Position numbers and translations under genes: made by a program | Notes under the pieces: model-generated | Told to the model about the DNA's origin: nothing | The model's database searches: none | What the model saw: the letters and a program-made list of their open reading frames with translations, nothing else | Shown: one piece after another, positions 9,930 to 33,855 of the stretch | Layout of the letters: every line of letters starts with the position of its first letter | How positions within the stretch are numbered: position 1 is the first letter of the stretch | Origin: Halogeometricum sp. S3BR5-2 | GTDB taxonomy: Archaea > Halobacteriota > Halobacteria > Halobacteriales > Haloferacaceae | Direction of reading: 5' to 3' | Length of the DNA: 64,000 nucleotides | Assembly: GCF_031624635.1 (NCBI RefSeq) | Contig: NZ_JAMQOQ010000007.1 | Location: 1 to 64,000 of the forward strand

Positions 9930-12900
9930 GCTTCAACTCCACGAGGGTACGTCTGAAACCAGCGAGTTGTCGGATATGTTCCGCTACCGAGGACAGCTTC
10001 AACCCCACGAGGGTACGTCTGAAACCGAGTCCGGCTACCGGACTCTCCACAGACGACGGACGGCTTCAACCCCACGAGGGTACGTCTGAAACACGTGTCG
10101 AGCGGCGGGGCCATCGAGCAGTACAACAGCTTCAACCCCACGAGGGTACGTCTGAAACTATTCTGCCGGGGTATCGCTACCCGGTCCCGGAAGCGCTTCA
10201 ACCCCACGAGGGTACGTCTGAAACCCGCACATCCTCACCATCGGTCAGACGCGCGCCGGGCTTCAACCCCACGAGGGTACGTCTGAAACGGCAACGCTCG
10301 TCGCTGTTCAAGTGACTCAGAACACGCTTCAACCCCACGAGGGTACGTCTGAAACTTCGAACCCCTGAACGCTGTACCCCATTCGACACAGCTTCAACCC
10401 CACGAGGGTACGTCTGAAACAGCGTCAAGACCGTCTCCGCAGGCCGCACACGCGCTTCAACCCCACGAGGGTACGTCTGAAACGCGAGGTATCGAGACTG
10501 TAGATACGCGTCGGGTGCTTCAACCCCACGAGGGTACGTCTGAAACGCGTCCCTTCGGCGTCGTCGCCCCCGTTCGGCGCTTCAACCCCACGAGGGTACG
10601 TCTGAAACAATCGAGCACGCATCAATCGCATACTCGCCAGTCGGCTTCAACCCCACGAGGGTACGTCTGAAACTGAGGGCGTCCCGGTCGGCCTCGCGCA
10701 CGTCCCGGCGCTTCAACCCCACGAGGGTACGTCTGAAACACGAGCGGGGGCACGTCGCCGACTACGGTGCGTTCAGGGACCTCGTGGCGCTTCAACCCCA
10801 CGAGGGTACGTCTGAAACAAGTCCATCTCGTGCCTCCGGTCGGCGAACTCGTCGCTTCAACCCCACGAGGGTACGTCTGAAACCTACTGGCACTGCGAGC
10901 GGTGCATGATGTTCTACCAGCTTCAACCCCACGAGGGTACGTCTGAAACGCGAGCGGTCGCCCGGCGAGCCCGAGTCATCCTCGCTTCAACCCCACGAGG
11001 GTACGTCTGAAACAGTGGAAACGGATTCAAGAGTTCGCCGCCCTCGACGCTTCAACCCCACGAGGGTACGTCTGAAACCAGATAGTATGGTGAATCCGGG
11101 CGGCCCTTACGCGCTTCAACCCCACGAGGGTACGTCTGAAACAACGCCTCGAACTCAGCCGCCGGAAGCTACAGAGCGCTTCAACCCCACGAGGGTACGT
11201 CTGAAACTCCTCGTGACCGTCGGCGGTTCGGATGTCGGTACGTCGCTTCAACCCCACGAGGGTACGTCTGAAACGCAGAGGGGCTTTCGCGTCCTGATTC
11301 GCCTCCTCGCTTCAACCCCACGAGGGTACGTCTGAAACTGACGTCTCAAAACATCCCGCAGGCGACGCAATTGAAGCTTCAACCCCACGAGGGTACGTCT
11401 GAAACTCGCGGAGGTCTCCGAGAGTCGTCTCCTCCCCCGCGCTTCAACCCCACGAGGGTACGTCTGAAACGTCAGTGATGACGATCAGGACGGACTCTCG
11501 GCGCGCTTCAACCCCACGAGGGTACGTCTGAAACTCCGGTCGGCGTCATCCATGGCTTCGTCGTGTGGAGCTTCAACCCCACGAGGGTACGTCTGAAACT
11601 CGGCAGTTTGGGCGTGTTCGGCCGTCGTCGCAGCTTCAACCCCACGAGGGTACGTCTGAAACACCTCATGGCCTCCGTGGAGGGCGACACCATCGATGAG
11701 CTTCAACCCCACGAGGGTACGTCTGAAACCACTTCTCTTCTCCGCGGTGGTCGTAGCACCGGAGGCTTCAACCCCACGAGGGTACGTCTGAAACGCTCTT
11801 CGGTTTCTTCGACAGGTTCGGCACCGGAGCGCTTCAACCCCACGAGGGTACGTCTGAAACGGCGGCCGGGGCGTCTCCCGGCGCCGTCGCGACCTCGCTT
11901 CAACCCCACGAGGGTACGTCTGAAACCGTGCGGCGGTCGCTCTCGGTCGGGCGGCCGAAAGCTTCAACCCCACGAGGGTACGTCTGAAACGCGAGTTCTT
12001 CCATCACCTCGGTCTCCCGCTCGGCGCTTCAACCCCACGAGGGTACGTCTGAAACGACGATGTAGTCGTACCCATCTTCGAGCGAATCGCTTCAACCCCA
12101 CGAGGGTACGTCTGAAACCTCGACAGTAGTTCTCGGCGGCCACGCGCACGGGGCTTCAACCCCACGAGGGTACGTCTGAAACCGGCAGTGTAGGGCCTCC
12201 CCGGCTCCATCGCTTGGCGCTTCAACCCCACGAGGGTACGTCTGAAACACCATGAGCGCGAGCAGGCAGGCAGCGAGCAACCGCTTCAACCCCACGAGGG
12301 TACGTCTGAAACCCGAGCCGTCGCGCGCCGTCATCGTCGTCAGGGTGCTTCAACCCCACGAGGGTACGTCTGAAACATCCGCTCCAGAGGACTTGCATGA
12401 AGTCAAATCCTCCGCTTCAACCCCACGAGGGTACGTCTGAAACACCCTGACGTAGTCGGGAGAGAACAGCCACCCGACGCTTCAACCCCACGAGGGTACG
12501 TCTGAAACCCCTCGGGTTTGATGTATTTGAGTGGGTGGATGAGGCTTCAACCCCACGAGGGTACGTCTGAAACTCGAACTCACCGGCGGATTGGAAATCC
12601 CCGCCGATACGGCTTCAACCCCACGAGGGTACGTCTGAAACAGCACCATCACCGAGTCCCGGTCACTCCCCCTGCGCTTCAACCCCACGAGGGTACGTCT
12701 GAAACCGAGGACGCACGTTTCGCCTCCGTCCGCTTAAACTCGCTTCAACCCCACGAGGGTACGTCTGAAACTCGGCTACGGCCATGCAGCATACGCGACT
12801 CGACGGCTTCAACCCCACGAGGGTACGTCTGAAACTCAATCTCCCGTTCGCCCGCACGGTCGACGTCGCGGCTTCAACCCCACGAGGGTACGTCTGAAAC

Positions 12901-13292
12901 TCCGCCATATTGCACGGTACATCTAACGCATACTGCTTCAACCCCACGAGGGTACGTCTGAAACCGCCGACACGGCACGTGATTGAGGCCTTATCGTGGT
13001 CGCTTCAACCCCACGAGGGTACGTCTGAAACACTCTTGAGAGGTCTGCACGACAGCGCCTTTGACTGCTTCAACCCCACGAGGGTACGTCTGAAACGGGA
13101 ACGGTTGCCGGCAGCACTCCGACCCCAACCCGCTTCAACCCCACGAGGGTACGTCTGAAACTTCGGGAGAGCGCGTCTCCGACCTCCCGCGTCGGGAGCT
13201 TCAACCCCACGAGGGTACGTCTGAAACCTGTTGCTTGTGCGCCGATTCGTAGACCGCCTCGGGCTTCAACCCCACGAGGGTACGTCTGAAAC
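9930..13292 (-). CRISPR. Type I-B CRISPR array, 52 repeats and 51 spacers
   Basis: The 30-base repeat reads GCTTCAACCC...ACGTCTGAAAC on the plus strand. The usual haloarchaeal orientation is the complement (GTTTCAG...GGTTGAAGC), so transcription runs right to left. I counted 52 repeats starting at 9930 and ending 13292. All look identical except the first listed (9930-9959), which has CTCC for CCCC; a changed terminal repeat marks the trailer end and puts the leader at the right, next to cas2. Repeat-to-repeat spacing is 62-68 bases except one 49-base spacer at 10740-10788. Long frames through the array are artefacts. Confidence 0.98.
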
Positions 13293-13393: not shown

Positions 13394-13654
13394 TTAGAGG
13401 AACCGACTGTCCTCGGTCGGATCGTCCCCATATACGGCCCGATTCAACAAGCTGTCCGAGGAAAGCTCATATACCATAACTGACTCCCCCTCCTGCAGTA
13501 GGTCTTCGATCTCCCCTTTCAATGTCGTCAGGTCGCCTTCCGAAATCTCGCCTTCGAGTACCGAGTTCTGGACGTGAACAAGATATCGACGACAGAGTTT
13601 CAGCATCAGCTGAGTCCGATCGGCCTCCATGTCGTAGACGACGATGACGTACAT
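13394..13654 (-). CDS. cas2: CRISPR adaptation protein Cas2
   Basis: 86 residues, typical Cas2 length. It begins MYVIVVYDMEADRTQLMLKL with the beta-1 Asp, and the ferredoxin-like fold continues with RRYLVHVQNSVLEGEISEGD and ends in a YELSSD strand. Cas2 dimers bridge two Cas1 dimers to form the spacer-integrating complex. Its ATG follows the cas1 stop with no gap. It is the last cas gene before the leader, as usual for haloarchaeal I-B loci. Confidence 0.97.
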   Translation of the reverse strand: MYVIVVYDMEADRTQLMLKLCRRYLVHVQNSVLEGEISEGDLTTLKGEIEDLLQEGESVMVYELSSDSLLNRAVYGDDPTEDSRFL

Positions 13655-14647
13655 CTACCACCACCGCTTGAATGAGTCGTAGGACTCGCCGGTCAACAGG
13701 TGCTTCTTTAGTTTGTACGCCTCCAAGCGAAGCAGATACTGATAGCTCACCTTCCGGTTCAGCGTTGGGTGCTCGACTGTTCGCTCAAGTGTCTGCTCAA
13801 ACTCCTTCAGAAACGTCGTTCGCCCCTCTTCGTTGAGTAGACAGGAGCCAACCTCGTCTCGGAAATCGTCTCGGCTGATCTGCTTCCGGTTGACCAGTCT
13901 GAACAGCAGCCGATCCGTCAACACAGGCTTGAACAGGTCGGCAATATCCAGCGAGAGCGAGTACCGGCGCTCACCCGGTTCGTGAAGATAGCTGATGGTC
14001 GGGTCGAGCGCGGTAGCACGGATTGCTGAGACACAGTTTGCGTACACCATACTGTTCCCGAACGAGATGAGCGCGTTCACAGGGTTCGGTGGAGGGTTGT
14101 ACTCTCGACCATCGAACGCGAACGAGTTGGGAAGAACTGCCTCGAACGTTCGGTAGTACGCCCGGCGGGCCGTCGCTTCCACGCCCATGAGCTCTGAGAT
14201 ATCGGCAGTGTCGCCGATACGTGCAGTTGCGTCATCCAGATCCTCGATTACGCCCCCGAGCTTGTACTCTCGACTGTCGTAGTATGTGACGTTCGTCCGC
14301 ATGTTGTGGATACTCCCACGGACGAACGAAGCGGCGAGAGACTGCCGTTGCTCCGGATCGTCGTACGCCCTGACCTGCTCAACGACGGTTCGACCGCTCG
14401 TCTGGCCGCGTTCGGGCATCAGCGATCCCGCGTAGCGATCGTTCCATCCAAAAACGTGTACGGCGACGCCGTGGTCGTTGAGAAACGACATCAGCCGCGT
14501 GTTGTAGTCGATCTGTCCGTGCAGGTAGATCGCTTCGGCGTGTTCGACGGGGATGTGTTTCTTCTCGCCGTCCGCTGTCTCCAGCCGGATCGTGTCCTCG
14601 CTCCGTTCGATGCGCCCGTCCGAAAAGATGTGGTAGTTCTTGTCCAT
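13655..14647 (-). CDS. cas1: CRISPR integrase Cas1 (type I-B)
   Basis: 330 residues from ATG at 14647; the frame extends 11 codons upstream over the end of cas4, but MDKNYHIFSDGRIER is the standard beginning. The N-terminal beta domain is followed by the helical domain with metal ligands E157 (MGVEATARRAYY), H222 (SYLHEPGERRYSLSLD) and D234/D237. The two-base gap after cas4 and direct junction to cas2 indicate one operon. It catalyses insertion of new spacers at the leader end. No lesion is visible. Confidence 0.97.
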   Translation of the reverse strand: MDKNYHIFSDGRIERSEDTIRLETADGEKKHIPVEHAEAIYLHGQIDYNTRLMSFLNDHGVAVHVFGWNDRYAGSLMPERGQTSGRTVVEQVRAYDDPEQRQSLAASFVRGSIHNMRTNVTYYDSREYKLGGVIEDLDDATARIGDTADISELMGVEATARRAYYRTFEAVLPNSFAFDGREYNPPPNPVNALISFGNSMVYANCVSAIRATALDPTISYLHEPGERRYSLSLDIADLFKPVLTDRLLFRLVNRKQISRDDFRDEVGSCLLNEEGRTTFLKEFEQTLERTVEHPTLNRKVSYQYLLRLEAYKLKKHLLTGESYDSFKRWW

Positions 14648-14649
14648 GA

Positions 14650-15195
14650 TCAGATCCAACAGAAGTCGTGGTAGGCACACGACTCGCAGTACGGTTTCTC
14701 AGTGGCTTCCGGCGGGCTGTCCGCGGTCACGACCGCGTGAATCCCCCGGATCGCCGACTCGACTTTGTCGCGCCGATCGTCGTCGAGGGAGACATCCTCA
14801 CGTCGACGCTCAGTCGGGTGTGCCAACACGCCCTCACGTTCGACGCCGAGTACCCGGTCGAGGTACCAGAGGTAATACGAGAGCTGCATCCGCGCTGGCT
14901 CAGTCAGCGTCGAGGAGGGTTTCACCTCGACCACCCGACCGTCTTCCAGTAGGTCGAGAGCGATCATCCCGAGTCGAAGGTTCTCCTGAGAACGTTCGCC
15001 ATAGGAGGACTCGTCGACGCGGGCCCCTCGGGCAACGCTCGCGTTCTCCCGGTCGATCTCGACGTTCCGGCTCTCGAACCAGAGTTCGCGTTCACAGACG
15101 TAGTAGTACTGCATCATCACGCCGGTAACGCGAAACGGGTCGTCGATGGCGTCGCCCTGAGCTGTCGCCACCAGTCGAGAGACAGGGTCGCTCAC
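14650..15195 (-). CDS. cas4: CRISPR-associated exonuclease Cas4
   Basis: 181 residues. It has the four Fe-S cysteines of Cas4 (C34, and C170-x2-C173-x5-C179) and the RecB-like nuclease core D81...E90-V-K92, then Q104 and Y108. Cas4 trims pre-spacers and helps select PAM-bearing fragments for Cas1-Cas2. It overlaps the end of cas3 by four bases (ATGA), so it is translationally coupled. Confidence 0.96.
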   Translation of the reverse strand: MSDPVSRLVATAQGDAIDDPFRVTGVMMQYYYVCERELWFESRNVEIDRENASVARGARVDESSYGERSQENLRLGMIALDLLEDGRVVEVKPSSTLTEPARMQLSYYLWYLDRVLGVEREGVLAHPTERRREDVSLDDDRRDKVESAIRGIHAVVTADSPPEATEKPYCESCAYHDFCWI

Positions 15196-17876
15196 AGCAA
15201 CCGAGCCTCCACACTCGTGTCGGGGATGACGATGCCGTCGGTGGCGTCGAAGTAGCCGTCATGCCGTCCCGGGCGCCCGTCGAGCACCAGCCGGTCGGTG
15301 TCGGGGAACAGCGGCTCGCACGCAGCGAGTTTCTCCATCGTGTCGTCGCCGGGGTAGACGGGAACGGAGACCTGCCAGTCCGCGGTCGACTCGACAAGGT
15401 CGTCCAGATCGTCCCACCGGTACTCGCCGAATGCTCGCCGGATCTCTTCGACGGTCTCGCGCTCATCGGCCGTTCTCGTCACGATCACGTCGACGGCGGG
15501 CCGCTCGTCGATGAGCGAGAGTCGCCCGAGCTGTTCGACTTCTGCCCGCTCGAGGTACTCCACGTACTCGTCGGCACCGACGTCACGCCCATCGAGCAGG
15601 TCGAAGTAGTGTTCGACGGCATTTCGAGTTACGTCTGGCTCGGGCATTGGGTCACCGTCGTAGACCGTTGCCAGCGCTTGGCCAGTCAATTTGGTGAGAC
15701 TCTCTCCTCGACCGTAGACCGCGCTTGCGGGCGTTGTCTCGCGGTTCGGCGGCGGCGCGAGCTGCCAGACTGTCACGCGCCCACGGTTGCGGTCGTATGA
15801 CCGGTTACATCGACCCGCAGCCTGCACGAGACTGTCCATCGGCGCGAAATCACGGATGACCTCGTCGAAGCTCACGTCGACGCCCGCCTCGACCAGCTGG
15901 GTGGAGACGAACAACACTGGTTCACCCGCTTCGGCGAGGTCGGATGCTACGTCGATGAGGTGGCGTCGGTCACACGGGCGGTGGCGTGTCGTGAGGTGGA
16001 CCAACAGCGGTTGCCCCGAGCGTCGTCGACGGATCGCGTCGGCGCGTGTTCGCTTGGGCGGTATCGATTCGGTCGATTCATCCGTGTCGTCGAGCAGTTC
16101 GTCGTACACCTCATTGACGTCCACTGGTGTTGTTCGGTCGGCAACTGACTCGGTGAGCTCACGCGCGCTGTCGATCGTGTTGCAGATCGCCAACACCGAA
16201 TCGCCGTCGCCCGCCCGGGTCGCGACGAGGTCGCCGGCTCGGTCGTAGGAGAGCGCTGCTGACTCCGCGTCGTCGTCGGTCGTGTCGCTCTCTTCACTGT
16301 CCTGCCCGGGAAGCATCGCGGTCGCGGACGGGTGAAGCACGAAGTCGAGCCGGTCCAGCTCGTCGTAGTACGGATTAGGATCCGCGACAAGGGAGAACGG
16401 CTCTCGGTCGCCCGCAGACAGGAGTTCAGGCTGGGTGGCCGTCATGGCGATCACCGACGCACCGTACTCCTCGGTCAACAGTTCGACCAGCCGGTCCACA
16501 AGCGGCCACCACTCAAGCGGCAGCGCCTGCGGTTCGTCGAGAACCACCACGCACCCGTACAGCGAGGGGAGCTTCATCGAGCGGGCGTTTGTCGGCCCGG
16601 CCAGACTCTCGAACATCTGGACGAACGTCGTCACGACCATCCCCGACCGCCAGCTCTCGCCGAGGAGGGCGGCGACGTTCTCGACGGCGTCGTCTGCGAC
16701 TGATTCGGGCTCGTCCGGCGGCGAGACGAGGGTATCCGCAAGGTGGTGGTCGACGGTGAGTCGTTCGCCTCTCTCACCGGCCCCGAACAGTTCGCGGCTC
16801 TGTTCAGCCACCTGATCGATAATGGACGTGTACGGCAGTGCATAGACGAGGCGCCCCTCGTTTGGGTTCGACGCCATCTCACTCCCCTCGAGCACTGTTA
16901 GGGCGGCGTCCAGCCCCGTGAGTGTCTTCCCCATGCCCGTTGGGAGCGTCAGCGTCGCGACGTTCCGATCGTCGTCGACGAACTCTTTGGCGCGAGCGTG
17001 AACCTCCTGTCGAGCGTCCTCGCGCCGCTCGTTCATCTGTTCCGTGCGCGGGTCCAGCTCTGTCTCAGCATTCTCAGTCTGGAGTTCGTCGATGTACGCG
17101 TCGATTTCTAGCCGCCCAGGGGTCGGCGACCGGTAGGCCTCCCGGCCGATTTCGATTCCGGTCGATAGGTGCGTCGCGCTCGCCTTGTCGGCGAAGACGA
17201 GCGCACTCCAGACCTGTAGCACTGACTCGTAAAAGCCGGGAGGAAGTTTCTCCGGTGCGGGGCGAAGTCGCCGGCCGCTACAGACGGCTTCCGCGACCCA
17301 CGGGAGCTCGATGGCTGCATCGGAATCGGCGAGCCGTTCGTGGAACGTTTCCCAGTCTCCAGCACCGCCCGTCGCTCGGTCCACGAGTGCCTCAGCGAGT
17401 TCAGGAACCGTCTCGTCGATGTGTGCTGCCTGTTCGAGCGCGTCGGACCGGTAGAATGTCTGGATCCGTCCGGACTGCTCGACGCTCGCTCGGTGCACGT
17501 AGTCGGCGGTATCGGGGAGGCGTCCGTGGTGTCTCGCGACGGCCAGAAAGCCGACGAGCTGATCGGCGCCGTCGAACCCGCGTGCCTCCAACGCGTAGTG
17601 GGCGAGTAGCGCCGATATCGGGGCGTGGTGTTTCGGTCCAGCTGGCTGTGCGTCGTCCGAAAGGAGATGCTCGCGGAACCACGCGGTCAACTTTCCGAAA
17701 TCGTGGACTCGTGTCACCACCTCCGCCAACTCGGAGAGCGAGTTCCCCTCCGGTGTCTCGGCGTCGTCGGGGACGAGCCATCCGACCCGCTCGCGGACGT
17801 CGTCCAGATGTTCTTCGAGTGGGATCCGTTCCCCGTCAGGTCCGATGTGTGACGGTCGGTCGGTGAAATCGACCAT
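15192..17876 (-). CDS. cas3: CRISPR nuclease-helicase Cas3 with N-terminal HD domain
   Basis: 894 residues. The HD nuclease domain lies at about 20-240: H23, then VHDFGK with H58-D59 and K62, HH at 83-84 and HH at 116-117. The SF2 helicase follows: Walker A PTGMGKT at 312-318, the DExH-type box DEPQ at 447-450, and the RecA2 region with a QAAGRCNR motif VI. After Cascade opens the target, Cas3 unwinds and degrades the DNA. Start at 17876, 19 bases after the cas5 stop; the four-base overlap with cas4 follows. The gene looks intact. Confidence 0.97.
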   Translation of the reverse strand: MVDFTDRPSHIGPDGERIPLEEHLDDVRERVGWLVPDDAETPEGNSLSELAEVVTRVHDFGKLTAWFREHLLSDDAQPAGPKHHAPISALLAHYALEARGFDGADQLVGFLAVARHHGRLPDTADYVHRASVEQSGRIQTFYRSDALEQAAHIDETVPELAEALVDRATGGAGDWETFHERLADSDAAIELPWVAEAVCSGRRLRPAPEKLPPGFYESVLQVWSALVFADKASATHLSTGIEIGREAYRSPTPGRLEIDAYIDELQTENAETELDPRTEQMNERREDARQEVHARAKEFVDDDRNVATLTLPTGMGKTLTGLDAALTVLEGSEMASNPNEGRLVYALPYTSIIDQVAEQSRELFGAGERGERLTVDHHLADTLVSPPDEPESVADDAVENVAALLGESWRSGMVVTTFVQMFESLAGPTNARSMKLPSLYGCVVVLDEPQALPLEWWPLVDRLVELLTEEYGASVIAMTATQPELLSAGDREPFSLVADPNPYYDELDRLDFVLHPSATAMLPGQDSEESDTTDDDAESAALSYDRAGDLVATRAGDGDSVLAICNTIDSARELTESVADRTTPVDVNEVYDELLDDTDESTESIPPKRTRADAIRRRRSGQPLLVHLTTRHRPCDRRHLIDVASDLAEAGEPVLFVSTQLVEAGVDVSFDEVIRDFAPMDSLVQAAGRCNRSYDRNRGRVTVWQLAPPPNRETTPASAVYGRGESLTKLTGQALATVYDGDPMPEPDVTRNAVEHYFDLLDGRDVGADEYVEYLERAEVEQLGRLSLIDERPAVDVIVTRTADERETVEEIRRAFGEYRWDDLDDLVESTADWQVSVPVYPGDDTMEKLAACEPLFPDTDRLVLDGRPGRHDGYFDATDGIVIPDTSVEARLL

Positions 17877-17895
17877 GACTACGCCCCCTCGTGGC

Positions 17896-18687
17896 TCACG
17901 AGAACATCACCCGTCGGCCGTCGACCTCGTGGGTCTCGACGTCCTGTACACGGAGTGGTTCTGCCCCAGTTGCGTACGCAATCGACTGGAACGCCGTTGT
18001 CGTCCGGCCACCTTCGTCGGCCGCCATGAACGCCGGTGAGCGTTCGACTTTGACCTCCGTTTCAGGGGTGAGTTCGACGCTATCGACGGCTTCGAGCACC
18101 ACCGAATCGACATCGGTCGTCTCGCGCTCGTGAGGCGTTAGCTCGAACTCGCCGAGATACGTGACCTCTGCAAGATGCTCCGAGAGGCCGAGACTCGGCG
18201 GGTAGTAGGACGTCCCATCGCGGAGTCGGTCCTGCAGTCGCCCTCGGAGATCGTCGTTCGCGAGCTGGAGATCGACACGGTAGGCCGGTTCGACGAGCAC
18301 CTCGTAGTTGTGTTGCTGGCGGAGCTCCGATGGGTCAGGCATCGAGATTCGTGCATGCCCGCGGCTGGGCATCGTCGTCATGTGCTCTTTTGCCGTCGAG
18401 AGCGTGTTCATCGGCATATTGATCGCCCGGAGCTCGTCGATCGGCTCCACCGCGACAGCCGACACGTTCTGGCTGAACGCCTCGTAGTAGCTGTCCCGGT
18501 CCAACCCAAGCATCGCGGCGACGAGACCGGCGACAGTCGTCCGGGGAATGATCCGATACGTCTGTTTGACGATGTTCCCCTCGACCCGTCGGAAGTGCCC
18601 CCACTCCCCGCGGAGTTCGAACGAGAGACACGTCTCTGGGAGCCCGTCGTCCTCGTCGGTCCTGCCTTCGAGTGACTCTTGGGCCAT
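17896..18687 (-). CDS. cas5: Cascade subunit Cas5 (type I-B)
   Basis: 263 residues from ATG at 18687, overlapping the cas7 stop (ATGA); a GTG one codon earlier is possible. The beginning CLSFELRGEWGHFRRVEGNI, then YRIIPRTTVAGLVAAMLGLD, is the Cas5 RAMP domain with its GPxG-like promoter of crRNA 5'-handle binding. The product caps the 5' end of the crRNA in Cascade and contacts Cas8. Gene order cas7-cas5-cas3 is standard for haloarchaeal I-B. Confidence 0.95.
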   Translation of the reverse strand: MAQESLEGRTDEDDGLPETCLSFELRGEWGHFRRVEGNIVKQTYRIIPRTTVAGLVAAMLGLDRDSYYEAFSQNVSAVAVEPIDELRAINMPMNTLSTAKEHMTTMPSRGHARISMPDPSELRQQHNYEVLVEPAYRVDLQLANDDLRGRLQDRLRDGTSYYPPSLGLSEHLAEVTYLGEFELTPHERETTDVDSVVLEAVDSVELTPETEVKVERSPAFMAADEGGRTTTAFQSIAYATGAEPLRVQDVETHEVDGRRVMFS

Positions 18688-19808
18688 CACTCGGGCATTG
18701 TCGCGGCAGCCTCGTCGTAGACGTCGACGACCTCAACCGTCTCGTCGTCGACAGCCTCACGGAGCACGTCGTAGAAGCCGTGCTCGCTGGGCTTGTCGCC
18801 CGCAGTGTAGACCTCGTCGTCGACGGTCACGTCGAGCACGTCGCTGGCGACGACACGAACGCGGGCGATACGGTCGGCGTGGCGGCCCAACCGGGAGACG
18901 AGCTCAGTCCCATCGAGCGTGAACTCTCGGACGTTTCGGAGTTCGTCGACAGGGGCCGAGCGCTCTTCATCGATGTCGAGGTCACGGGTGAGGCCACCGA
19001 GGTGGAAGCTCTCGTCTTCGTACTCCACACGGAGGTAGAGTCGTGGCTCTTGGCCGACTTTGCTCCGGCTGATGGTCTGGTTCTTGATCGCGCGCCACGG
19101 GAGGGTGTCGAGACGCTCGACGTCAGCCTCGGAGAGCTTCGTGTCGGCGGCACCGTTCTCATCGACCAATCCGTGAAACGCGATGAAGCCATACTGAATA
19201 CGGTGGTCGTCGAGGTCGAACCCACCCTGCTCTTTCCCCTCGCCGGTCGCGATGACGCTTGTAAGGCTGTTGTACTCCTCGTTCTCGGTTACAGGATGAA
19301 GCGTCTTCGCGGGCGAGAACTGGACGGGACCGGTAAAGTGGTCTGGAAGGTAGTCCTCGAACCCCTCGTAGCTCCCCTTCATGTCGACGCTCATCGTCGC
19401 GCCGAAATACCGCACGTCGGCGCTGGCGTCAAGGAACGTGCCGAATACTTCCTCGCGGAGTTCAGCCGCCTCATCGTCGTCCAGATCGCCGAGCTCCCAG
19501 TCGTCCGGGTCTAGCTCACGCATCCGGTCCGCGAGCAGGTCTTCACGCGAGGACTGCTTGCCCGCCTCGTTTTTGACGTTCCGCACGTAGACGCCGTGGC
19601 CGTCGTCGTCTAGCTGGTCGCGGAGGTAGCGCTTCAGCCGGACGTCGGTCACGATCGCCTGCTGGGTCTCGGGATCGATGCGCGGCCGGTTCGCCCCGCT
19701 CAGGGGGTTCCCGTTCGGGTTGGCGTCGACGGCGTCGTAGCAGAAGACGATCTCGGATCGGTTCGTTACTGGGTCGTAGCTGTCGTCGGCGTATGTGTCG
19801 TCGGTCAT
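18687..19808 (-). CDS. cas7: Cascade backbone subunit Cas7 (Csh2-like)
   Basis: 373 residues. The start of the fold is RSEIVFCYDAVDANPNGNPL and the Csh2-type segment with TDVRLKRYLRDQL and VRYFGATMSVDM follows, both hallmarks of I-B Cas7. Several copies polymerise along the crRNA to form the Cascade backbone. It overlaps cas8b by four bases and cas5 by one codon. No frameshift is seen. Confidence 0.95.
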   Translation of the reverse strand: MTDDTYADDSYDPVTNRSEIVFCYDAVDANPNGNPLSGANRPRIDPETQQAIVTDVRLKRYLRDQLDDDGHGVYVRNVKNEAGKQSSREDLLADRMRELDPDDWELGDLDDDEAAELREEVFGTFLDASADVRYFGATMSVDMKGSYEGFEDYLPDHFTGPVQFSPAKTLHPVTENEEYNSLTSVIATGEGKEQGGFDLDDHRIQYGFIAFHGLVDENGAADTKLSEADVERLDTLPWRAIKNQTISRSKVGQEPRLYLRVEYEDESFHLGGLTRDLDIDEERSAPVDELRNVREFTLDGTELVSRLGRHADRIARVRVVASDVLDVTVDDEVYTAGDKPSEHGFYDVLREAVDDETVEVVDVYDEAAATMPE

Positions 19809-21958
19809 GCTTCTTCCTCCTCGGCTGCGGGCTGGCCATCGGCCTGTTCGTCGTCGTCGCTGCTCGTCCAGTTGTTCATCCCGTAGGCAACCCCGAGCGA
19901 GTAGTAGAATCGAAGGTCCGTTGTGTCGAGTTCCCAGTCGCCGTCGATATCGAGCTGGGGGAGCGTCGTCACCAACCGATCGACAACCTCGCTGTACATC
20001 GTCCCCGCCATATTGTTCTCCCGGGAGTAGACGATGTTCTTGTCAAGCACGTCGCTGGCAAGGCGCTTCAGCTTCGACTCTGTGACGGCCTTGATCGGGT
20101 ACTGGTCGATTAGCGTCGTCGAGCGCCCCTCACTGACTTGCTGGTAGCCAGTTACTTGACCGACCAGTGCGCCGAGGAGGAAACTGCCACGCCGTTCAGG
20201 CTGATCCTCCGCGAGCGCCGGCGTCTGTTCAAGGAACTGTTCGAGCTTCGTCTCCCGAGCCGCGGCGACGTTCCCGCCGTCAGCTCGGGCTGGTGTGTCC
20301 TGTTGCATATCGTCTGTCTGGTCGTGTGTCAACTGCCGCGGCTCTGCGACCGGTTCGTACGCGTCGCGTCCGGTGAGAAGCCCCGCTTCGGCGAGCGCAC
20401 AGAGCTGTGCGTACTGTGCAGCGACACGGAAGCTCGGGAACTCCTCGCCCTCGTCCTCAAGCAGTCGTTCCACGTACTCTGTGAGCACCGTCTCGATGTC
20501 GAGCGGCTCGCCCGAGAGAACGGCCACGAGCGCACGGATTCGATAGTCGTCGGCGCTGGCGTCGTCGTCATCGGCCGGCGCGAACGTCTGTTCGAAGTAC
20601 CAGCCGGTTGCGAGGGTGCTCAGCAATGCCGACTCCTCCGGAACGAAGATGTCCCAGTTGTCCGGTGTCGGGAACGCGGCTCGAAGCCCCGGATCGGGGT
20701 GGTCGGCGTCACCCTCCGCGTCGTACAGCCACGATCGGAGCACCCGCTGGTGCGATCTGGTGAGCTCGACGGGCGAGAACAGCGTCCCGTCCATACTGTC
20801 GCCGAATACGTCGAAGCGCTTCGTCTGGTGTTCCATCACTGCAGCGACGTAGAACCGGAAGCGTTCACCCACTTCCTGCAGCCGCGGGGTGTCCTGATAG
20901 CTTCGGTAGGCGCTCTCTAGCGGGCTCATCTCTCCGGCGTGAACCAAGTCGTAGAGAAGCCCGTAGAGATCTCTCGCATCTTCCGGACCAAGCCGCCCAA
21001 AAAAGTACGGGAGGTAGTAGACGTTTGCCCCCATCGTGTAGTAGTCGCAGGCGTCGACGAACGTACTCGCGTTCATCAGCGTCACTGCAACGTCTTCCGA
21101 GACTGGGTGTGTCCGCCACGCCTCGTCCGGATCGAACCCGGGGAACTTCTCGAGCTGCTTGCCGAGGAAGTAGTTCAGCGGATCCTCAGCTGTCCCGACA
21201 GTCGGGCCTCGATTGCCGGTCACGAGATCGGTTGCCTCACCGATGGAATCCGTGGCCTCTCCCTTCGAGACGAGCTTCGATCGCTTGCGCGCTCGCATTG
21301 CTTCGTTGAACACGGAACTCGCCTCACCCGGGAGGAGATACTCGCCGTCAGGCTCGGATTTGACTGCGACGGTCGTGAGCGCCGTCGTCTTGCCGTCGAG
21401 CTGTTCGTCGACGGCTGTCTCGATGCGTTCTCTAAGTCCCTCACTCTCGCCGAGCTCGGCGAGCGCGTCGACGATCCATCCGTCTTCGTGATCGGCGACA
21501 GCCTCTTGGATCACGTCGTCGGCCGCCCACGCGGTGAGCCGTTCGTGGAGATACTCCGCGACCTTCTCTGGCTCTTTGTTCTTGCCCGTTCGGTGGGTGA
21601 CACTGTGGTCGAACCCTTTTGCGGCGTTATACCACGAGTGGGCGACTGCCTCGACTTTCTCCTTGCCGTAGCTCTCGACACCGATCGGTTGGTCGGGGTC
21701 GAGGCGGGGCTTGTCCTCACTCAGATCGACGCGGAGATAGAGTAGGCTCTCGGACTCGTCGAACAGGTCGGTCGATTTCTCCGGCGTCAGGTAGGCTGCG
21801 TACTCGCCACCTCCGGCGGTTGCGAGCGTGTATAGACGCCCGTAGACGTACTGGAGATCGCGGAGCGAGGTGATCGGTCGATCAGGCAGCTCGCTCGCTA
21901 GCTTCTCGTCGTCGCTGTAACGCTTCTCGAACGTCGACGGCTCGGGGAGCAGACTCAT
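19805..21958 (-). CDS. cas8b: Cascade large subunit Cas8b (Csh1)
   Basis: 717 residues, normal for haloarchaeal Cas8b/Csh1. Primary sequence of this family varies widely; identification rests on length, on the position between cas6 and cas7 with four-base overlaps on both sides, and on Csh1-like blocks such as NYFLGKQLEKFPGFD and the RRGSFLLGALVGQVTGYQQ helix near the C-terminus. Cas8b recognises the PAM and stabilises the R-loop. The tail is highly acidic (AEEEEA). Confidence 0.93.
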   Translation of the reverse strand: MSLLPEPSTFEKRYSDDEKLASELPDRPITSLRDLQYVYGRLYTLATAGGGEYAAYLTPEKSTDLFDESESLLYLRVDLSEDKPRLDPDQPIGVESYGKEKVEAVAHSWYNAAKGFDHSVTHRTGKNKEPEKVAEYLHERLTAWAADDVIQEAVADHEDGWIVDALAELGESEGLRERIETAVDEQLDGKTTALTTVAVKSEPDGEYLLPGEASSVFNEAMRARKRSKLVSKGEATDSIGEATDLVTGNRGPTVGTAEDPLNYFLGKQLEKFPGFDPDEAWRTHPVSEDVAVTLMNASTFVDACDYYTMGANVYYLPYFFGRLGPEDARDLYGLLYDLVHAGEMSPLESAYRSYQDTPRLQEVGERFRFYVAAVMEHQTKRFDVFGDSMDGTLFSPVELTRSHQRVLRSWLYDAEGDADHPDPGLRAAFPTPDNWDIFVPEESALLSTLATGWYFEQTFAPADDDDASADDYRIRALVAVLSGEPLDIETVLTEYVERLLEDEGEEFPSFRVAAQYAQLCALAEAGLLTGRDAYEPVAEPRQLTHDQTDDMQQDTPARADGGNVAAARETKLEQFLEQTPALAEDQPERRGSFLLGALVGQVTGYQQVSEGRSTTLIDQYPIKAVTESKLKRLASDVLDKNIVYSRENNMAGTMYSEVVDRLVTTLPQLDIDGDWELDTTDLRFYYSLGVAYGMNNWTSSDDDEQADGQPAAEEEEA

Positions 21959-22761
21959 CCGTGGACCTCCGCCGCGGGTTCGCCGTACGGGTTGCGCTTC
22001 TCGACCAGGTTACAGAAACCCAATCCAAGCGCGTTTCGTTCCCCAAGCCCGCAGTCCAGTACAAGGTTGAGGTGGCGTCGATGGTCATCGTCTCTGACGG
22101 TGTAGTTGAACTGCCACTTCGAGAGCACGAAGGTTAGCTCCTGGTCTGCGGTTACCTGAATCGGGACGGCGAACGTCTTCAGTAGCTCGTATCCCTCGAA
22201 GAGATCGCCCGCAGTGTCGCTCGGACCCGGAAGATATTCCGGGCTGAACAGCTCGTGTTTCTGGTCGAGATTCGCTTCGACCTGCTCGCGCAGTGGCTCG
22301 ATTGTATGTTCTGGCTGCCAATACACCGCCTCTTCGCCGGGGTTCTCAATTCCATAATCGTCACAACGCCATGGTGGGATGCGCACGAGGAGTCCAGTGC
22401 CAGTCTCGATCGTCCCGCTGCTCCCTGGTTCGCCGACGTCCGGTGACAGTGACGTGAGTTCGTCGATATGGAACGGCATCTGGCCGATATTGAGCTCGCG
22501 ATCGGCGGTCAGGTCTTCTGCAACATCGGCCAGTAGTTGCTCTTGGGGGGCCGAAATCAGCAGAGTGCGCTCGTCCCCTTCCTGCATATCTCCCGGCGGG
22601 AAGGGGTTACTGTAATTGAATCCCGGTGGGCGGTTTTCGTCATGATACTGTTCGTACTCCGTGCCCTGCAACGCTCGCCAGATCCGACCTCGGAGCTTGT
22701 GGTGATACGCGTTGTCGTATGCGGCATCAGCGCGCGCGTGTAGCCGTGCTAGTAGTCTCAC
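21955..22761 (-). CDS. cas6: CRISPR RNA endonuclease Cas6
   Basis: 268 residues starting with GTG at 22761. The N-terminal RAMP fold has HHKLRGRIWRAL, giving candidate catalytic histidines H20/H21, and the C-terminal glycine-rich loop DCGLGERNALGLGFCNLV is the Cas6 signature. It cuts pre-crRNA within the repeat, leaving an 8-base 5' handle. It is the first gene of the cas operon; the crRNA-like element at 22831-22918 lies just upstream in the same direction and would need Cas6 for maturation. Confidence 0.96.
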   Translation of the reverse strand: MRLLARLHARADAAYDNAYHHKLRGRIWRALQGTEYEQYHDENRPPGFNYSNPFPPGDMQEGDERTLLISAPQEQLLADVAEDLTADRELNIGQMPFHIDELTSLSPDVGEPGSSGTIETGTGLLVRIPPWRCDDYGIENPGEEAVYWQPEHTIEPLREQVEANLDQKHELFSPEYLPGPSDTAGDLFEGYELLKTFAVPIQVTADQELTFVLSKWQFNYTVRDDDHRRHLNLVLDCGLGERNALGLGFCNLVEKRNPYGEPAAEVHG

Positions 22762-22830
22762 AGTGTTATGTCGATTTAGGTACCGATTCCATGGTAGTTA
22801 TTCTTTTCTCCTGATGAGAAGTACATGCCA
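22762..22830 (-). promoter_or_regulatory. Putative cas6 promoter region
   Basis: On the minus strand an A-rich block (GAGAAAAGAATAAC, about 22796-22809) lies about 35 bases before the cas6 GTG, placed to act as BRE/TATA for a short leader or leaderless transcript. The next bases on the minus strand start TACCA, the same five bases that begin the pseudo-spacer of the adjacent crRNA-like element. Confidence 0.45.
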
Positions 22831-22918
22831 GCCCCCACCTCACCGAAGTTCATCTGAAACTTGTGACAGTGTTGGCACCATACTGGTAACTTCAACCGCA
22901 GTTGCGTTCATCTGATAC
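22831..22918 (-). ncRNA. crRNA-like element: two degenerate CRISPR repeats around a 28-nt pseudo-spacer (CreA/CreR-like)
   Basis: On the minus strand, pseudo-repeat 1 (22918-22889) matches the array repeat at 21 of 30 positions and pseudo-repeat 2 (22860-22831) at 20 of 30. Both carry the same two changes in the CAGATGAAC block. Conservation is placed as function would demand: pseudo-repeat 1 keeps the 3' part GGTTGAAG that becomes the crRNA 5' handle, and pseudo-repeat 2 keeps the 5' part GTTTCAGA that forms the 3' tag. The pseudo-spacer (22888-22861) starts TACCAGTATGG. CreA and CreR are known crRNA-like RNAs near cas6 that guide Cascade to repress a toxin or the cas promoter. The target here is inferred, not shown. 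Confidence 0.7.
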
Positions 22919-23014
22919 GGATTGGGTGCCTCATCTAGCCGCAACCATCATGAGTGCTGGGTGTATACCCACCTATTGCACTATTTCCGTGCGGTGCTTG
23001 CATGCCTAGGGCCC

Positions 23015-23041
23015 GGAGTAGATATCAGGAATATCTACTCC
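23015..23041. repeat. Perfect 11-bp stem-loop near the crRNA-like element
   Basis: GGAGTAGATAT (23015-23025), loop CAGGA, then ATATCTACTCC (23031-23041). It lies between the crRNA-like element and the vapBC-like remnant with no T-run on either side, so an operator or a structured RNA is more likely than a terminator. Confidence 0.7.
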
Positions 23042-23116
23042 CCTGAGGCAAACATCATATTCTTGGCTTCATCAGTATCCTATTTCCTCGCTACCGATAT
23101 AGTTGTTTCTACCACT

Positions 23117-23254
23117 ATGGAAGAGTTCCGCACGCTCCTGCTTCAGTCCCACAAGGATGCATCGCCGAGGGGCAAGTCTCGGAGATGCGGGAAGCCATCG
23201 ACACTGCCGACGATCGGATCAAGATGAGGCATGACGAGTCTCAGAGCGGTTCGA
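23117..23254 (+). pseudogene. Frameshifted small gene upstream of vapC remnant (vapB-like position)
   Basis: ATG 23117 opens MEEFRTLLLQSHKDA, then protein-like sequence continues one frame over as IAEGQVSEMREAIDTADDRI and KMRHDESQSGSNDR up to a stop touching the next ATG. A single-base loss near 23160 explains the break. The position directly before a VapC-type start suggests a former antitoxin, but the family is not recognisable. Confidence 0.5.
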
Positions 23255-23362
23255 ATGATCGTTGACACCAGCTTCATTCTCAACGTTTTCGACGATCTCG
23301 ACGAAGCAGTGGTCTGTCGCCGACTCCGAGTAGCACTGCGCACCTACGCGTTGAGCGAGTGA
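23255..23362 (+). pseudogene. Truncated VapC (PIN-domain) toxin remnant
   Basis: ATG 23255 begins MIVDTSFILNVFDDLDEAV, the exact pattern of a VapC PIN domain with its first catalytic Asp. After that the sequence departs from the family (VCRRLRVALRTYALSE) and stops at 35 residues instead of about 130. The rest of the toxin is missing. It ends in the gap before the integrase. Confidence 0.65.
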
Positions 23363-23673: not shown

Positions 23674-24765
23674 GTGACCGTCGACGACTCCGAGGTCTCC
23701 CAAGCTGTCGGCCGCTATCTCCGCTCCAGCGGTGACTCCGACCAGTACCGTCACACCGCCGAAACCGTCCTCGACCAGTTCACCGTCTGGCTCCGACGTC
23801 GCGATCTCGAGACCTTCGGCTCCTTCGAGAACGATGGCGAGCAGATTCTTCGCCGGTATGCCGATAGGCTGAATCAGCGCGTCGAGGCAGATGGAATCGC
23901 AGCGTCGACAGCACAGATGTACTATAACGTCGTGAGCGGATTTCTCGGCTACTGTGTTCGCGACGGCGTCCTCTCACAGAACCCGGCACTCACTGATCGT
24001 GCTCGTGAGCCTTTGCCTCGCGACGATGAAGACCGTACGCAACAGTTCTGGACGCCCGAAGTTCGCCAGCAACTCGTCGAGTACACGAACGACCGCGCGT
24101 ACGAAGCAATCGAAGCAGACGGTCTCGACGCGACACAGGCCGTCCAAGACCGCGCGTTCATCCACGTCCTCGCGTACACGGGTGTCCGAGGAGCAGAGGT
24201 CTTCCGCGTGAGCGGCGACGACCGCTCGGGCCGACAAGGACTCACCTGGGAACGTGTGGATATGGACTCGTGGACGTTCCGCGTCTGGGGGAAATCGCAG
24301 TCGTGGGAGGACGTCTCCGTACTTGAACAGGCTCGTGAGGCAATACAGCAGTGGAAGCGTATTCAAGATCCTCCGACCGAAGCGTGGCCGGTGTTCCCGA
24401 CCGGCCACGCGCCGTCAAAGTACGCTGTGGTCCGCGATGCACGCGAGGACGCCGACGCACTTCTCAACGACGCTGACGTCAACGAGGTTCTCCGCAAGTA
24501 CGAAATCGCACCACCGACGGTCACGACCCACGGCGCGCGTCGGGTCCTCGCGCGAATCGCCGCCGATGCCGGCGTCAACGTCGACGGAGAGGCACCGAAG
24601 CTACACGGTGCTCGTCGCGGCCTCGGGGACGCGCTATTCCGCAAAGACCGGGGACTGGCGTCCGACGTCCTGCGGCACTCCAGTCTCTCCGTGACGAAAG
24701 CGGCCTACTCGCACATCGACGCTTCAGAGCGCGGTGAGACCGCTAGCCGGCTCCTTGACGAGTAG
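23674..24765 (+). CDS. Tyrosine recombinase/integrase, copy 1
   Basis: 363 residues starting with GTG 23674. The N-terminal SAM-like core-binding domain (about 5-110) is followed by the catalytic domain: first Arg in YTGVRGAEVFRVSG, then a Lys-bearing hairpin, KLHGARRGLGDALFR with H-x-x-R, LRHSSLSV with the second His, and nucleophile Tyr in TKAAYSHIDASERGETASRL. A near-identical copy lies on the opposite strand at 62435-63526. No tRNA gene is nearby, so the attachment site is not evident. Could act as integrase, resolvase or inversion enzyme. Confidence 0.93.
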   Translation: MTVDDSEVSQAVGRYLRSSGDSDQYRHTAETVLDQFTVWLRRRDLETFGSFENDGEQILRRYADRLNQRVEADGIAASTAQMYYNVVSGFLGYCVRDGVLSQNPALTDRAREPLPRDDEDRTQQFWTPEVRQQLVEYTNDRAYEAIEADGLDATQAVQDRAFIHVLAYTGVRGAEVFRVSGDDRSGRQGLTWERVDMDSWTFRVWGKSQSWEDVSVLEQAREAIQQWKRIQDPPTEAWPVFPTGHAPSKYAVVRDAREDADALLNDADVNEVLRKYEIAPPTVTTHGARRVLARIAADAGVNVDGEAPKLHGARRGLGDALFRKDRGLASDVLRHSSLSVTKAAYSHIDASERGETASRLLDE

Positions 24766-27329: not shown

Positions 27330-27470
27330 TGCTGCATACACGCTCTGTATTCGGCACGCGACTTTTGACAGCGTTCGGTGAGGTTCCTGTGGCCGTGCTG
27401 AATACAGAACGCGAATCGGTCGCTGGCACAACACCCAAGCTAGAGAATTGAACCGCTCAGAACAGGGGAG
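27330..27470. repeat. Three-arm GTGCTGAATA repeat, copy A
   Basis: Starts TGCTGCATACACGCTCTG, then arm TCTGTATTCGGCACG (27344-27358), a middle GACAGCGTTCGGTGAGGTT, and arm CGTGCTGAATACAGA (27394-27408), followed by GCGAATCGGTC. Arms pair with one mismatch. Confidence 0.7.
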
Positions 27471-27539
27471 AAGCTCAGCAGTCTGAATAGTATTCACTAC
27501 GTCCCATGCTTTTTTGCGCTCTGCCATTTATGTCATTGT

Positions 27540-27731
27540 ATGAATAGTAATCTGAGTACCGTATTCGGAATGGTCTTTGTGGTCCTCTACTTCTCTTTCC
27601 AGTATGCTCAAGGCGAAATACCGATAGAATTTGCAGTTCTCGGAGCCGGAGGTGCGACAATTACTGCACTCATCTGCCTCGGTTTTTATCTCAGACTGAC
27701 GAGGGACGGCCAGATGAATAATCCGAGTTGA
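27540..27731 (+). CDS. Small two-helix membrane protein, unknown
   Basis: 63 residues from ATG 27540. Two hydrophobic helices (TVFGMVFVVLYFSFQYA and FAVLGAGGATITALICLGFY) joined by a short polar turn, with a positively charged end. No family recognised. It lies between two copies of the intergenic repeat family and reads alone. Confidence 0.55.
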   Translation: MNSNLSTVFGMVFVVLYFSFQYAQGEIPIEFAVLGAGGATITALICLGFYLRLTRDGQMNNPS

Positions 27732-27754
27732 ATTCAGTTCATACGCCGTCCAGT

Positions 27755-27840
27755 TCGCACCTCTCTACTGAACGGCTGTTTCGCAACCAACGGCGTGAAA
27801 CGAATCTCAGTGCCGTGCTGAATACACCCTCTGTGTTTCC
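27755..27840. repeat. Repeat B: ACGGCTGTTTC hairpin plus GTGCTGAATA arm
   Basis: CCAGTTCGCACC...CTGAACGGCTGTTTCGC...GCGTGAAACGAA then GTGCCGTGCTGAATACACCC. The GTTTCGC/GCGTGAAAC part can fold as a stem. About 75 bases match repeat C at 28912-28992 in the same orientation, so the DICT gene sits between direct repeats. Confidence 0.65.
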
Positions 27841-27981
27841 CGAGTCACCCCGAATCATCAAAATGTGTATAGTTTATGAGTGTTTAACTCGGGAGTTCTA
27901 TTGAATGGTCCTCCTATCGGTCCTGTATGATGATGATGATCTGGGTCACGTAATATCTTATTCAGTTGAGGAAAACGAAAG

Positions 27982-28788
27982 ATGAGTGAAGAGGTAATAC
28001 CAATGGTCGACTCGATACGCGATTTCTTTGACTACATTGAAAATCCTGTTCGGAACTTGGTTGTCTTGGACACGTCGTCGCCCAAGCCGGTCCGTAACAT
28101 GCTCAACTCGTTAGTTGAAGGCCAGCCTACCTCACTCAATTTCGATCCTGAGGATATTGGCCCCATTAGCGGAGACGCCGACACGAGTATCGTCGTCTTA
28201 GTCGAAAACGGCACCGTACTTGCTCAGTCAAGCGTTGACGAACTGCTTGAATCAGTTCTGTTGATCAATTCAGACCTGTTCAAAACAGGTGCAATAGATC
28301 TTGGTGATGTTGTCCTTCCAGACGTACTCAAAGGGCTCGATGAGGTTCCGTTTCGAGTCAGGGGATATCCAGACGCAAACAAACAAAATCTGCTGTTTAT
28401 CATTATTTCACGGGTGATTGAACGAATTGCTTCCGAAACAGGTCGTGGGACGCTTCGCTCCTCATTCCAACAGCTTTCCCGAATCCACGATGAGAAGGGA
28501 ACCTACGAGGTGTACGATGCCCTCTGTAAGCAGGGAGTTGACGTCCACATCTATGGTGTCGGTGATCTCGATACGTCGAAGACACCGCCAGCCACCGTTC
28601 ATACTGGAGACACATACGAATACAAGAACGCGTGGGTTGTTGTTTTCACACCGCCAGCAGGGAGTGATACGAGCGACTGTGCCGCTCTCGTTGCACTCGA
28701 AGACGAGCCAAACGTCTGGAATGGCTTTTGGACATTTCGCCCTGAGTTTGTCACTCGGATCGATTCCTATCTTGCAGAGAATATGTAG
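27982..28788 (+). CDS. DICT sensory domain protein
   Basis: 268 residues from ATG 27982. The C-terminal half has the DICT pattern: RGTLRSSFQQLSRIHDEKGT, then YDALCKQGVDVHIYGVGD, then WVVVFTPPAGSDTSDCAALV and ALEDEPNVWNGFWTFRPEFV. DICT domains are thought to sense light- or ligand-linked signals in diguanylate cyclases and two-component proteins; here no output domain is present beyond an N-terminal alpha/beta region (LVVLDTSSPKPVRNML). The gene is flanked by direct copies of an intergenic repeat. Confidence 0.8.
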   Translation: MSEEVIPMVDSIRDFFDYIENPVRNLVVLDTSSPKPVRNMLNSLVEGQPTSLNFDPEDIGPISGDADTSIVVLVENGTVLAQSSVDELLESVLLINSDLFKTGAIDLGDVVLPDVLKGLDEVPFRVRGYPDANKQNLLFIIISRVIERIASETGRGTLRSSFQQLSRIHDEKGTYEVYDALCKQGVDVHIYGVGDLDTSKTPPATVHTGDTYEYKNAWVVVFTPPAGSDTSDCAALVALEDEPNVWNGFWTFRPEFVTRIDSYLAENM

Positions 28789-28904
28789 TAGAAATTCTCC
28801 ACCAGCTTCGATCGTCTCGTTGGTCCGTGCTGAGTTGATGTGCAAAACTCTCCTGTATCTTGTCGACGAGCCGAACAGTGTCTGAGCTGAATACGAATCT
28901 TAGT

Positions 28905-29120
28905 GACCAGTTCGCACGTCCCCACTGAACGGCTGTTTCACGACCCAGGGTGTGAAACGAACCGCAGTGCCGTGCTGAATACACCCTCTGAATCGGTCAC
29001 AACGCTTCTGACAGCGTTCAGTGAGGTTTCGACGAGTGTGCTGAATAGAGGGCGCGAATCGGTCACCAGCTTGGTTCAACATGGGCACTCAAGCCGCTCA
29101 GTACAGAGAATTGACTCAAC
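28905..29120. repeat. Three-arm GTGCTGAATA repeat, copy C
   Basis: Begins AGTTCGCACG...CTGAACGGCTGTTTCAC and GTGTGAAACGAA (perfect GTTTCAC/GTGAAAC stem), then CCGTGCTGAATACACCCTCT, GACAGCGTTCAGTGAGGTTT, and GTGCTGAATAGAGGGCGCGA followed by ATCGGTCAC and a tail shared with copies A and E. Confidence 0.7.
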
Positions 29121-29191
29121 ATTCGGTACTGGTGATAGATTGGGTTGGTGCCTCGCAGACCTCCAGAGGGAGCAGCACGGAAGCGAGTCGG

Positions 29192-30688: not shown

Positions 30689-31338
30689 TCTTCACCCCTA
30701 AGTGGCCGGTAGTTCCACCGCGTGAATAATCGGGTTGTTTGACTGCGCGATTCCCGTCTTCGAACTGAATATGACGGTCTGGTGAACCAGCTGTGTTGCG
30801 ATTTACTCATGTGGAAGTGTCGTGTACCTCGCCGGACTACGTGGTCGTCGAACGATTCGCTATCCGAGTGCGAACAACGCGGGACTTTGAGGAGAGCGCC
30901 GCCAAGGAAGCGTCAGCGACGAGGGTCGATCCGCGAAAGCAGCGGCTTCAAGCAGGATGACCGACCGTGGGCCCGCGTATATCGAGCCCGGCTACAGCAC
31001 GGCGCACATGAGAACTACACCGATGGACGGTGGTATCGGCTAAATATGTTTGCCACCCGATTAGCGGGATCTCTCGGGACTATCGCTCCAAACAGGACCT
31101 GATACCGGGCTGGGTTCGATAAACCAGAGTCAGCCGAAAGGATCGCCGTTTCGTTGTGAACGTATCGGACGGATAAGTGAACAATACGCAGACCTACTGA
31201 GCGGTTAGTTCAGCGTCGGTAAGATGGAATAAACGAGCCCTCCGTGAGAGATACATCCTCTCTATTCACACGCATCGCTGCAGACAGGCCTACACGGTCT
31301 GGGGTATGAAGACGAAGATTCGAAGTTCCACTGGAAAG
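30689..31338. other. Long gap without a supported gene
   Basis: About 650 bases. Frames here are short and not protein-like. Near 31243-31290 a left half of the three-arm repeat family is present (TACATCCTCTCTATTCACAC then GCAGACAGG). The MATE promoter lies at the left edge. Confidence 0.45.
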
Positions 31339-31344
31339 CTTATA
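31339..31344 (+). promoter_or_regulatory. TATA box of small membrane protein gene
   Basis: CTTATATCGG centred about 27 bases before the ATG at 31369, the spacing expected for a leaderless haloarchaeal transcript. It supports the choice of 31369 over the upstream in-frame start. Confidence 0.55.
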
Positions 31345-31368
31345 TCGGTTCGGCAGTGTAGGGTGGAT

Positions 31369-31629: not shown

Positions 31630-31689
31630 GTATGGCCCACTCATCGGGCTGTATCGGTAACAGGTAGCCGAAGTCGCTGATAGCCGTTT

Positions 31690-31790
31690 ACTGATATACC
31701 CTCTCTATTCAGCACGTCGCTCCTGACAGCGCTCGGTGAGGTTTTTCCGAGCGTGCTGCATAGAGGGCACGAGTCGGTCACATAATGACT
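31690..31790. repeat. Three-arm GTGCTGAATA repeat, copy D
   Basis: Arm CCCTCTCTATTCAGCACG (31699-31716) and arm CGTGCTGCATAGAGGG (31752-31767) pair apart from a two-base insertion; TACTGATATA before the first arm is the third, weaker arm. GACAGCGCTCGGTGAGGTTT lies between, and GAGTCGGTCAC follows. Confidence 0.7.
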
Positions 31791-33282: not shown

Positions 33283-33317
33283 GTAAATTTATCACCCTCC
33301 TCATTTATCGTAAGGTG

Positions 33318-33848: not shown

Positions 33849-33855
33849 GGCCTCC

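Follow-up and report, generated by a model that had tools for sequence, protein, structure and literature searches.

A spacer-like guide between two degenerate CRISPR repeats is located upstream of cas6 in the window (the whole stretch of 64,000 nucleotides from Halogeometricum sp. S3BR5-2 that was analysed), which raises the question of where this guide takes Cascade and what is silenced there. The sequence-only reading had tentatively answered that guided Cascade binds at 23068-23100 and silences, or once silenced, a vapBC-like toxin-antitoxin pair starting at 23117 on the plus strand; such an arrangement, a guide RNA against a protein toxin, would be CrePA-like. We report that the locus very probably represents a CreTA (CRISPR-regulated toxin-antitoxin RNA pair, type VIII) of the Halobacterium hubeiense type. 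The target is found at 23107/23110 and not at 23068/23071, the silenced promoter is on the minus strand instead of the plus strand, and the toxin is predicted to be an RNA that carries a six-codon ORF and sequesters tRNA, in place of a protein VapBC pair. The right kind of system had been seen, slightly misplaced and with the toxin misnamed: the idea that Cascade, directed by a crRNA-like guide encoded next to cas6, keeps a toxin promoter in this interval repressed stands, while the exact site does not. Coordinates are collected in Table 1.

Table 1. Features of the creTA locus and of the adjoining CRISPR-Cas genes in the window
Feature	Positions	Strand	Description
CRISPR array	9930..13292	-	52 repeats GTTTCAGACGTACCCTCGTGGGGTTGAAGC; Rfam RF01337
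cas8b, cas7, cas5, cas3, cas4, cas1, cas2 (type I-B)	13394..21958	-	All ORFs intact; cas4 and cas2 assigned by position, as in the H. hubeiense annotation
cas6	21955..22761	-	First gene of operon cas6-8-7-5-3-4-1-2; Pfam PF01881; same order in the H. hubeiense annotation
ΨR2, degenerate repeat	22831..22860	-	20/30 to CRISPR repeat; first 22 nt 15/22
Mature CreA (predicted), ~58 nt	22839..22896	-	8-nt 5' handle + 28-nt ΨS + 22-nt 3' handle; ends placed by analogy with H. hubeiense CreA, whose Cas6 cuts are mapped (PMC8501985)
ΨS, spacer-like guide, 28 nt	22861..22888	-	TACCAGTATGGTGCCAACACTGTCACAA
ΨR1, degenerate repeat	22889..22918	-	21/30 to CRISPR repeat; last 8 nt (5' handle) 7/8
creT stem-loop	23015..23041	-	Stem 12 bp, loop 3; -20.2 kcal/mol, z = -2.8; kept in relatives
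creT mini-ORF	23055..23072	-	AUG AAG CCA AGA AUA UGA; six codons; mixed rare Arg + Ile codons
Target of the sequence-only reading, rejected	23068..23078	+	TTCAT is the creT start, ATGAA, read on the opposite strand
creT promoter	23096..23109	-	BRE-like GAAACAA; TATA box TATATC at 23101-23096; ~26 nt before the start codon
PAM 5'-TTC-3'	23107..23109	+	Complement of GAA in the creT-promoter BRE; invariant, 6/6 loci
CreA protospacer	23110..23137	+	Seed 23110-23120; pairing poor past the seed; 13/28 in total
R0, decayed CRISPR repeat upstream of creT	23140..23169	-	19/30; clearer repeats at the equivalent place in relatives

On the minus strand the order is creT promoter, mini-ORF, 12-bp hairpin, ΨR1–ΨS–ΨR2 and cas6, with creA (ΨR-ΨS-ΨR) lying next to a type I cas operon, approximately 70 nt upstream of cas6. 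The spacing of the creT promoter is kept in the aligned relatives, and its position is consistent with that of the H. hubeiense promoter (PMC8501985). The mini-ORF is predicted to be leaderless, with its start placed from the promoter spacing; it carries two consecutive rare codons, but these are unlike each other, and a stable stem-loop is present 3' of it. The guide of 28 nt falls within the length range where interference by the Haloarcula hispanica Cascade is largely lost and repression is still possible (PMC10989794).

The strings quoted for the earlier site are correct, i.e. TTC at 23068-23070 is followed by ATCAGTAT and the pseudo-spacer starts with TACCAGTATGG (minus strand, 22888-22861), and the 7/8 identity to the pseudo-spacer was reproduced, given a one-base slip. 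With the guide in register, pairing after TTC 23068 drops to 1/10 seed positions and 3/28 overall. The slipped match is approximately at chance level as judged by counts against randomised windows: TTC followed by at least 7/8 of ACCAGTAT at an offset of 0-2 occurs four times in the window, with the true target among the four, and randomised windows of similar dinucleotide make-up gave a mean of 1.37 (sd 1.35). Moreover, the GTAT part of the site varies, relatives having ATCACAAC or ATCAACAG, and the part that is kept, ATCA, belongs in reverse complement to the start region of the toxin. Site 23068 was rejected on register, chance level and lack of conservation.

A better PAM-adjacent match, the outcome that the sequence-only reading had itself named as refuting its site, lies only 39 bases downstream. 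TTC 23107-23109(+) is followed by TACCACTATGG (23110-23120), which matches ΨS at 10/10 of positions 1-5 and 7-11, so that the guide pairs with the creT promoter from a 5'-TTC PAM in the complement of the BRE; the sole mismatch between target and ΨS within the seed is at position 6. In type I Cascade, position 6 of the seed is unread. Among the 2503 TTC sites scanned on both strands of the window, the runner-up to the 23107 site reached 7/10, and the PAM-seed pattern TTCTACCANTATGG has a single occurrence in the 4.66-Mb genome. Positions 1-5 and 7-11 are exactly those needed in H. hubeiense according to mutation data (PMC8501985).

The pairing was compared across six loci: the window, H. hubeiense (G213), Halorubrum amylolyticum, Halorubrum sp. 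Atlit-26R, Halobonum tyrrellensis and genome G070. All six have the 10/10 seed match, the TTC PAM, a target 202-203 nt from ΨR1, the mini-ORF and the hairpin. Position 6 of the protospacer is C in the window, A in H. hubeiense, Hrr. amylolyticum, Atlit-26R and G070, and G in H. tyrrellensis, and the bases past the seed are unconserved. Ten fixed seed bases together with a free, unread position 6 is the pattern predicted by selection on Cascade pairing. A doubtful 7/8 match is hereby replaced by a guide-target pair that is specified in full and accompanied by natural comparative data.

In favour of silencing of a VapBC-type gene are the TTC with its slipped match at 23068, the ATG at 23117 and a PIN-like stretch, MIVDTSFILNVFDD, at approximately 23255; against it stand the 1/10 in-register seed match, the unconserved GTAT, the chance level of the slipped match, and the finding that the plus-strand ORF behind ATG 23117 runs for 36 codons and the VapC-like piece for 43 before a stop, with no Pfam match for either. 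The ATG taken as the toxin-antitoxin start corresponds to seed positions 8-10 of the true protospacer. Relatives keep the seed target with other DNA past it, CRISPR repeats included, and KilA-N proteins are the typical toxins of known CrePA (PMC12737573), while no intact toxin protein is present under the CreA-targeted promoter, where the DNA differs in relatives. We give this alternative next to no credence, and VapBC as the silenced toxin was rejected, being broken, unconserved with the target and without Pfam or plasmid match. What was called the "vapBC remnant" is a neighbouring piece, broken and unconserved: a VapC-like N-terminus, MIVDTSFILNVFDDLDEAV, at 23231-23362(+), which stops after 43 codons and has creT on one side and a phage-type integrase gene (23674-24765) on the other; searches of this piece against Pfam and plasmids gave no match. 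Further along the window, at 27330-34740, several dispersed repeats of 30-90 bp with GTGCTGAATAnAG...CGCGAATCGGTC (families D5, D7 and D10) are present in several copies within 8 kb.

A different role for the guide would be autoregulation of the CreR type, where it binds the cas6 promoter and tunes cas expression. TACCA is indeed present in the cas6 promoter region, and an orphan creA remains beside cas6 in Halobacterium sp. DL1 (G172), G310 and G119. The cas6 site is limited to TACCA, i.e. positions 1-5 (5/10), and is preceded by AAC rather than by a TTC PAM; other TTC sites near the locus reach at most 6/10, and the sole 10/10 site is the creT promoter. We consider autoregulation very unlikely for this guide.

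In the same three genomes, G310, DL1 and G119, creA is kept, the mini-ORF is lost and the seeds have drifted. No target was found near the locus in any of them, and genome-wide searches for a PAM-seed target of the orphan creA gave none, using the exact pattern in DL1 and G119 and the exact or one-mismatch pattern in G310. Retargeting of the orphan creA in G310, DL1 and G119 was rejected on these exact (in G310 also one-mismatch) searches; these creA copies may be orphan antitoxins or guides with some other role. The orphan seeds beside intact cas6 read TATCAGTATAG in G310 (L083), TACGAGTATGG in DL1 (L084) and TACAAGTATGT in G119 (L085). Sequence similar to the D5/D7/D10 repeats is found beside the DL1 orphan creA (end of the L011 stretch). 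In Salarchaeum JOR-1, with closely related cas genes, neither creT nor creA is present within 400 bases upstream of cas6. Taken together, the comparative picture is one of ten fixed seed bases with position 6 free and, where the toxin is gone, a lost target and a drifting guide.

Returning to the CreTA reading, codons 4-5 of the mini-ORF are AUA-AUA in H. hubeiense, G070 and both Halorubrum, AGA-AGA in H. tyrrellensis and AGA-AUA in the window. The mixed pair is a new feature of the window's creT and is intermediate, by sequence as well as by tree position, between the two published toxin types. AGA-AUA and AUA-AUA are separated by one base, and an assembly error is possible, yet the nearest creTA relative also has AGA at this position. 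The window's creT may tie up tRNA-Arg(UCU), tRNA-Ile(CAU) or both. One tRNA-Arg(UCU) gene, with an intron, was detected in the genome together with two genes for tRNAs with a CAU anticodon; one of these has initiator tRNA features, and the other probably encodes tRNA-Ile(CAU), the identities given here being inferred. With simple ORF calling, AGA is rare at approximately 1.9 per thousand codons and AUA amounts to at most approximately 3.9, where the counts are noisy, include some misread frames and likely overestimate AUA; in the cas genes AUA is at 0.6 per thousand. AUA may therefore be not very rare in this genome, and one copy of each rare codon could make a weaker toxin.

Two readings of the mixed pair were weighed. 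In the first, AGA and AUA would together starve tRNA-Arg(UCU) and tRNA-Ile(CAU), neither tRNA alone rescuing the cell; we regard this as possible, though less likely than not. In the second, the locus is a decaying relic where creA still silences and the AGA-AUA toxin is weak or dead. The mixed pair is unlike the homogeneous pairs of the characterised tRNA-sequestering CreT, and loss of creT is frequent among relatives (G310, DL1, G119 and Salarchaeum JOR-1), both of which would fit decay; against it, no damage is seen in the start, UGA stop, hairpin, promoter or target, and the altered codon is itself rare and found in the toxin of the nearest relative. Decay is judged unlikely, short of being remote. 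If the combined starvation of both tRNAs is true, the window holds a living intermediate between AUA-AUA and AGA-AGA, and an RNA toxin can switch its tRNA target codon by codon with function kept. The mixed toxin offers a simple test of target change in tRNA-sequestering toxins, and of whether sequestering one each of two rare tRNAs equals two of one in toxicity.

With respect to the evolutionary routes, the tree based on the creTA region (22780-23125) places the window with H. tyrrellensis (support 96/94; 92/92 with the codon columns removed), and a one-base deletion is common to the creTA of these two. The cas6-cas8 tree (19805-22761) differs and is partly unresolved, with the window nearest Halorubrum (97% DNA identity). 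Given the discordance between the two trees, creTA and cas may have exchanged partners by recombination.

A covariance-model search for distant CreT in 170 genomes of the family and 391 of the class, using an RNAalifold structure in which some pairs are probably spurious, returned the known loci and a decayed copy in G310 only. No match was found in the 125 genomes of another haloarchaeal family. Virus-borne copies were also sought, and the mini-ORF pattern was unmatched in viral contigs; four viral contigs match GTTGAAGTTACCANTATGG, a pattern so short that chance matches are possible at that scale.

In the window and in 4/4 relatives scanned, the creT promoter has an R0-type repeat relic upstream of it. 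One decayed repeat is found in the window and in G070, and two copies, 70 nt apart, in H. hubeiense and Hrr. amylolyticum. In H. tyrrellensis (L086, approximately 1-275) at least four repeats form a real array that ends just before creT. These relics suggest that creTA originated in a CRISPR array, at the end distal to the leader.

Cas6 processing, Cascade-dependent repression and toxicity by tRNA sequestration have been shown for the H. hubeiense homolog, where the inverted repeat of creT is required (PMC8501985). With the H. hubeiense creT, transformation of a cas6-minus host drops approximately 10^4-fold. By extension from this homolog, Cas6 would cut ΨR1 and ΨR2 and free CreA, and CreA-loaded Cascade would occupy 23107-23137, without cleavage, and keep TFB/TBP off the creT promoter. 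Loss of Cascade would release creT transcription, and repeated translation of the mini-ORF would tie up the scarce tRNAs for AGA/AUA; their depletion would stop growth and make the cas genes addictive. The victim in the window's copy would be tRNA-Arg(UCU), tRNA-Ile(CAU) or both.

Among known systems, CrePA (as described in PMC12737573) resembles the present locus in that a crRNA-like antitoxin represses a toxin promoter via the CRISPR effector, but its toxin is typically a KilA-N protein, and the target in the window is without an intact toxin protein. The founding member, Haloarcula hispanica CreTA (Li et al. 2021, Science, as described in PMC8501985), shares repression by CreA-Cascade of a toxin RNA acting through sequestration of a rare tRNA, with pairing at positions 1-5 and 7-11; unlike the window's copy, it is situated between cas6 and cas8, has one ΨR and a Shine-Dalgarno-led four-codon AGA-AGA ORF, and shows little sequence similarity. 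The nearest relative of the window's creTA is that of Candidatus Halobonum tyrrellensis G22 (L019/L086), a homolog noted in PMC8501985. Both have AGA as the first rare codon; in H. tyrrellensis, however, the pair is AGA-AGA, position 6 is also matched, the locus sits where a second, real CRISPR array ends and cas6-cas8 is more diverged.

The closest characterised system is H. hubeiense CreTA (Cheng et al. 2021, PMC8501985), located upstream of the cas operon with two ΨR, pairing at positions 1-5 and 7-11, TTC in the complement of the BRE and a leaderless six-codon ORF with AAG CCA followed by two AUA. In comparison with H. hubeiense JI20-1 pSTJ001 (NZ_LN831303), the window is 90.4% identical over 301 bases of creTA and 91.3% over 9 kb of cas genes. 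The two share a two-ΨR creA with an identical seed, located ahead of cas6 in the same type I-B operon, an ORF starting AUG AAG CCA and ending with a UGA stop, the inverted-repeat hairpin and TTC in the BRE complement. They differ in the codon pair, AGA-AUA in the window versus AUA-AUA in the H. hubeiense mini-ORF (AUG AAG CCA AUA AUA UGA), in protospacer position 6 (C versus A) and in the TATA box, which reads TATATC in the window; the upstream flank of the target is different as well. The approximately 90% identity and these shared features place the window in the H. hubeiense group and, apart from its mixed codons, the locus is ordinary for CreTA.
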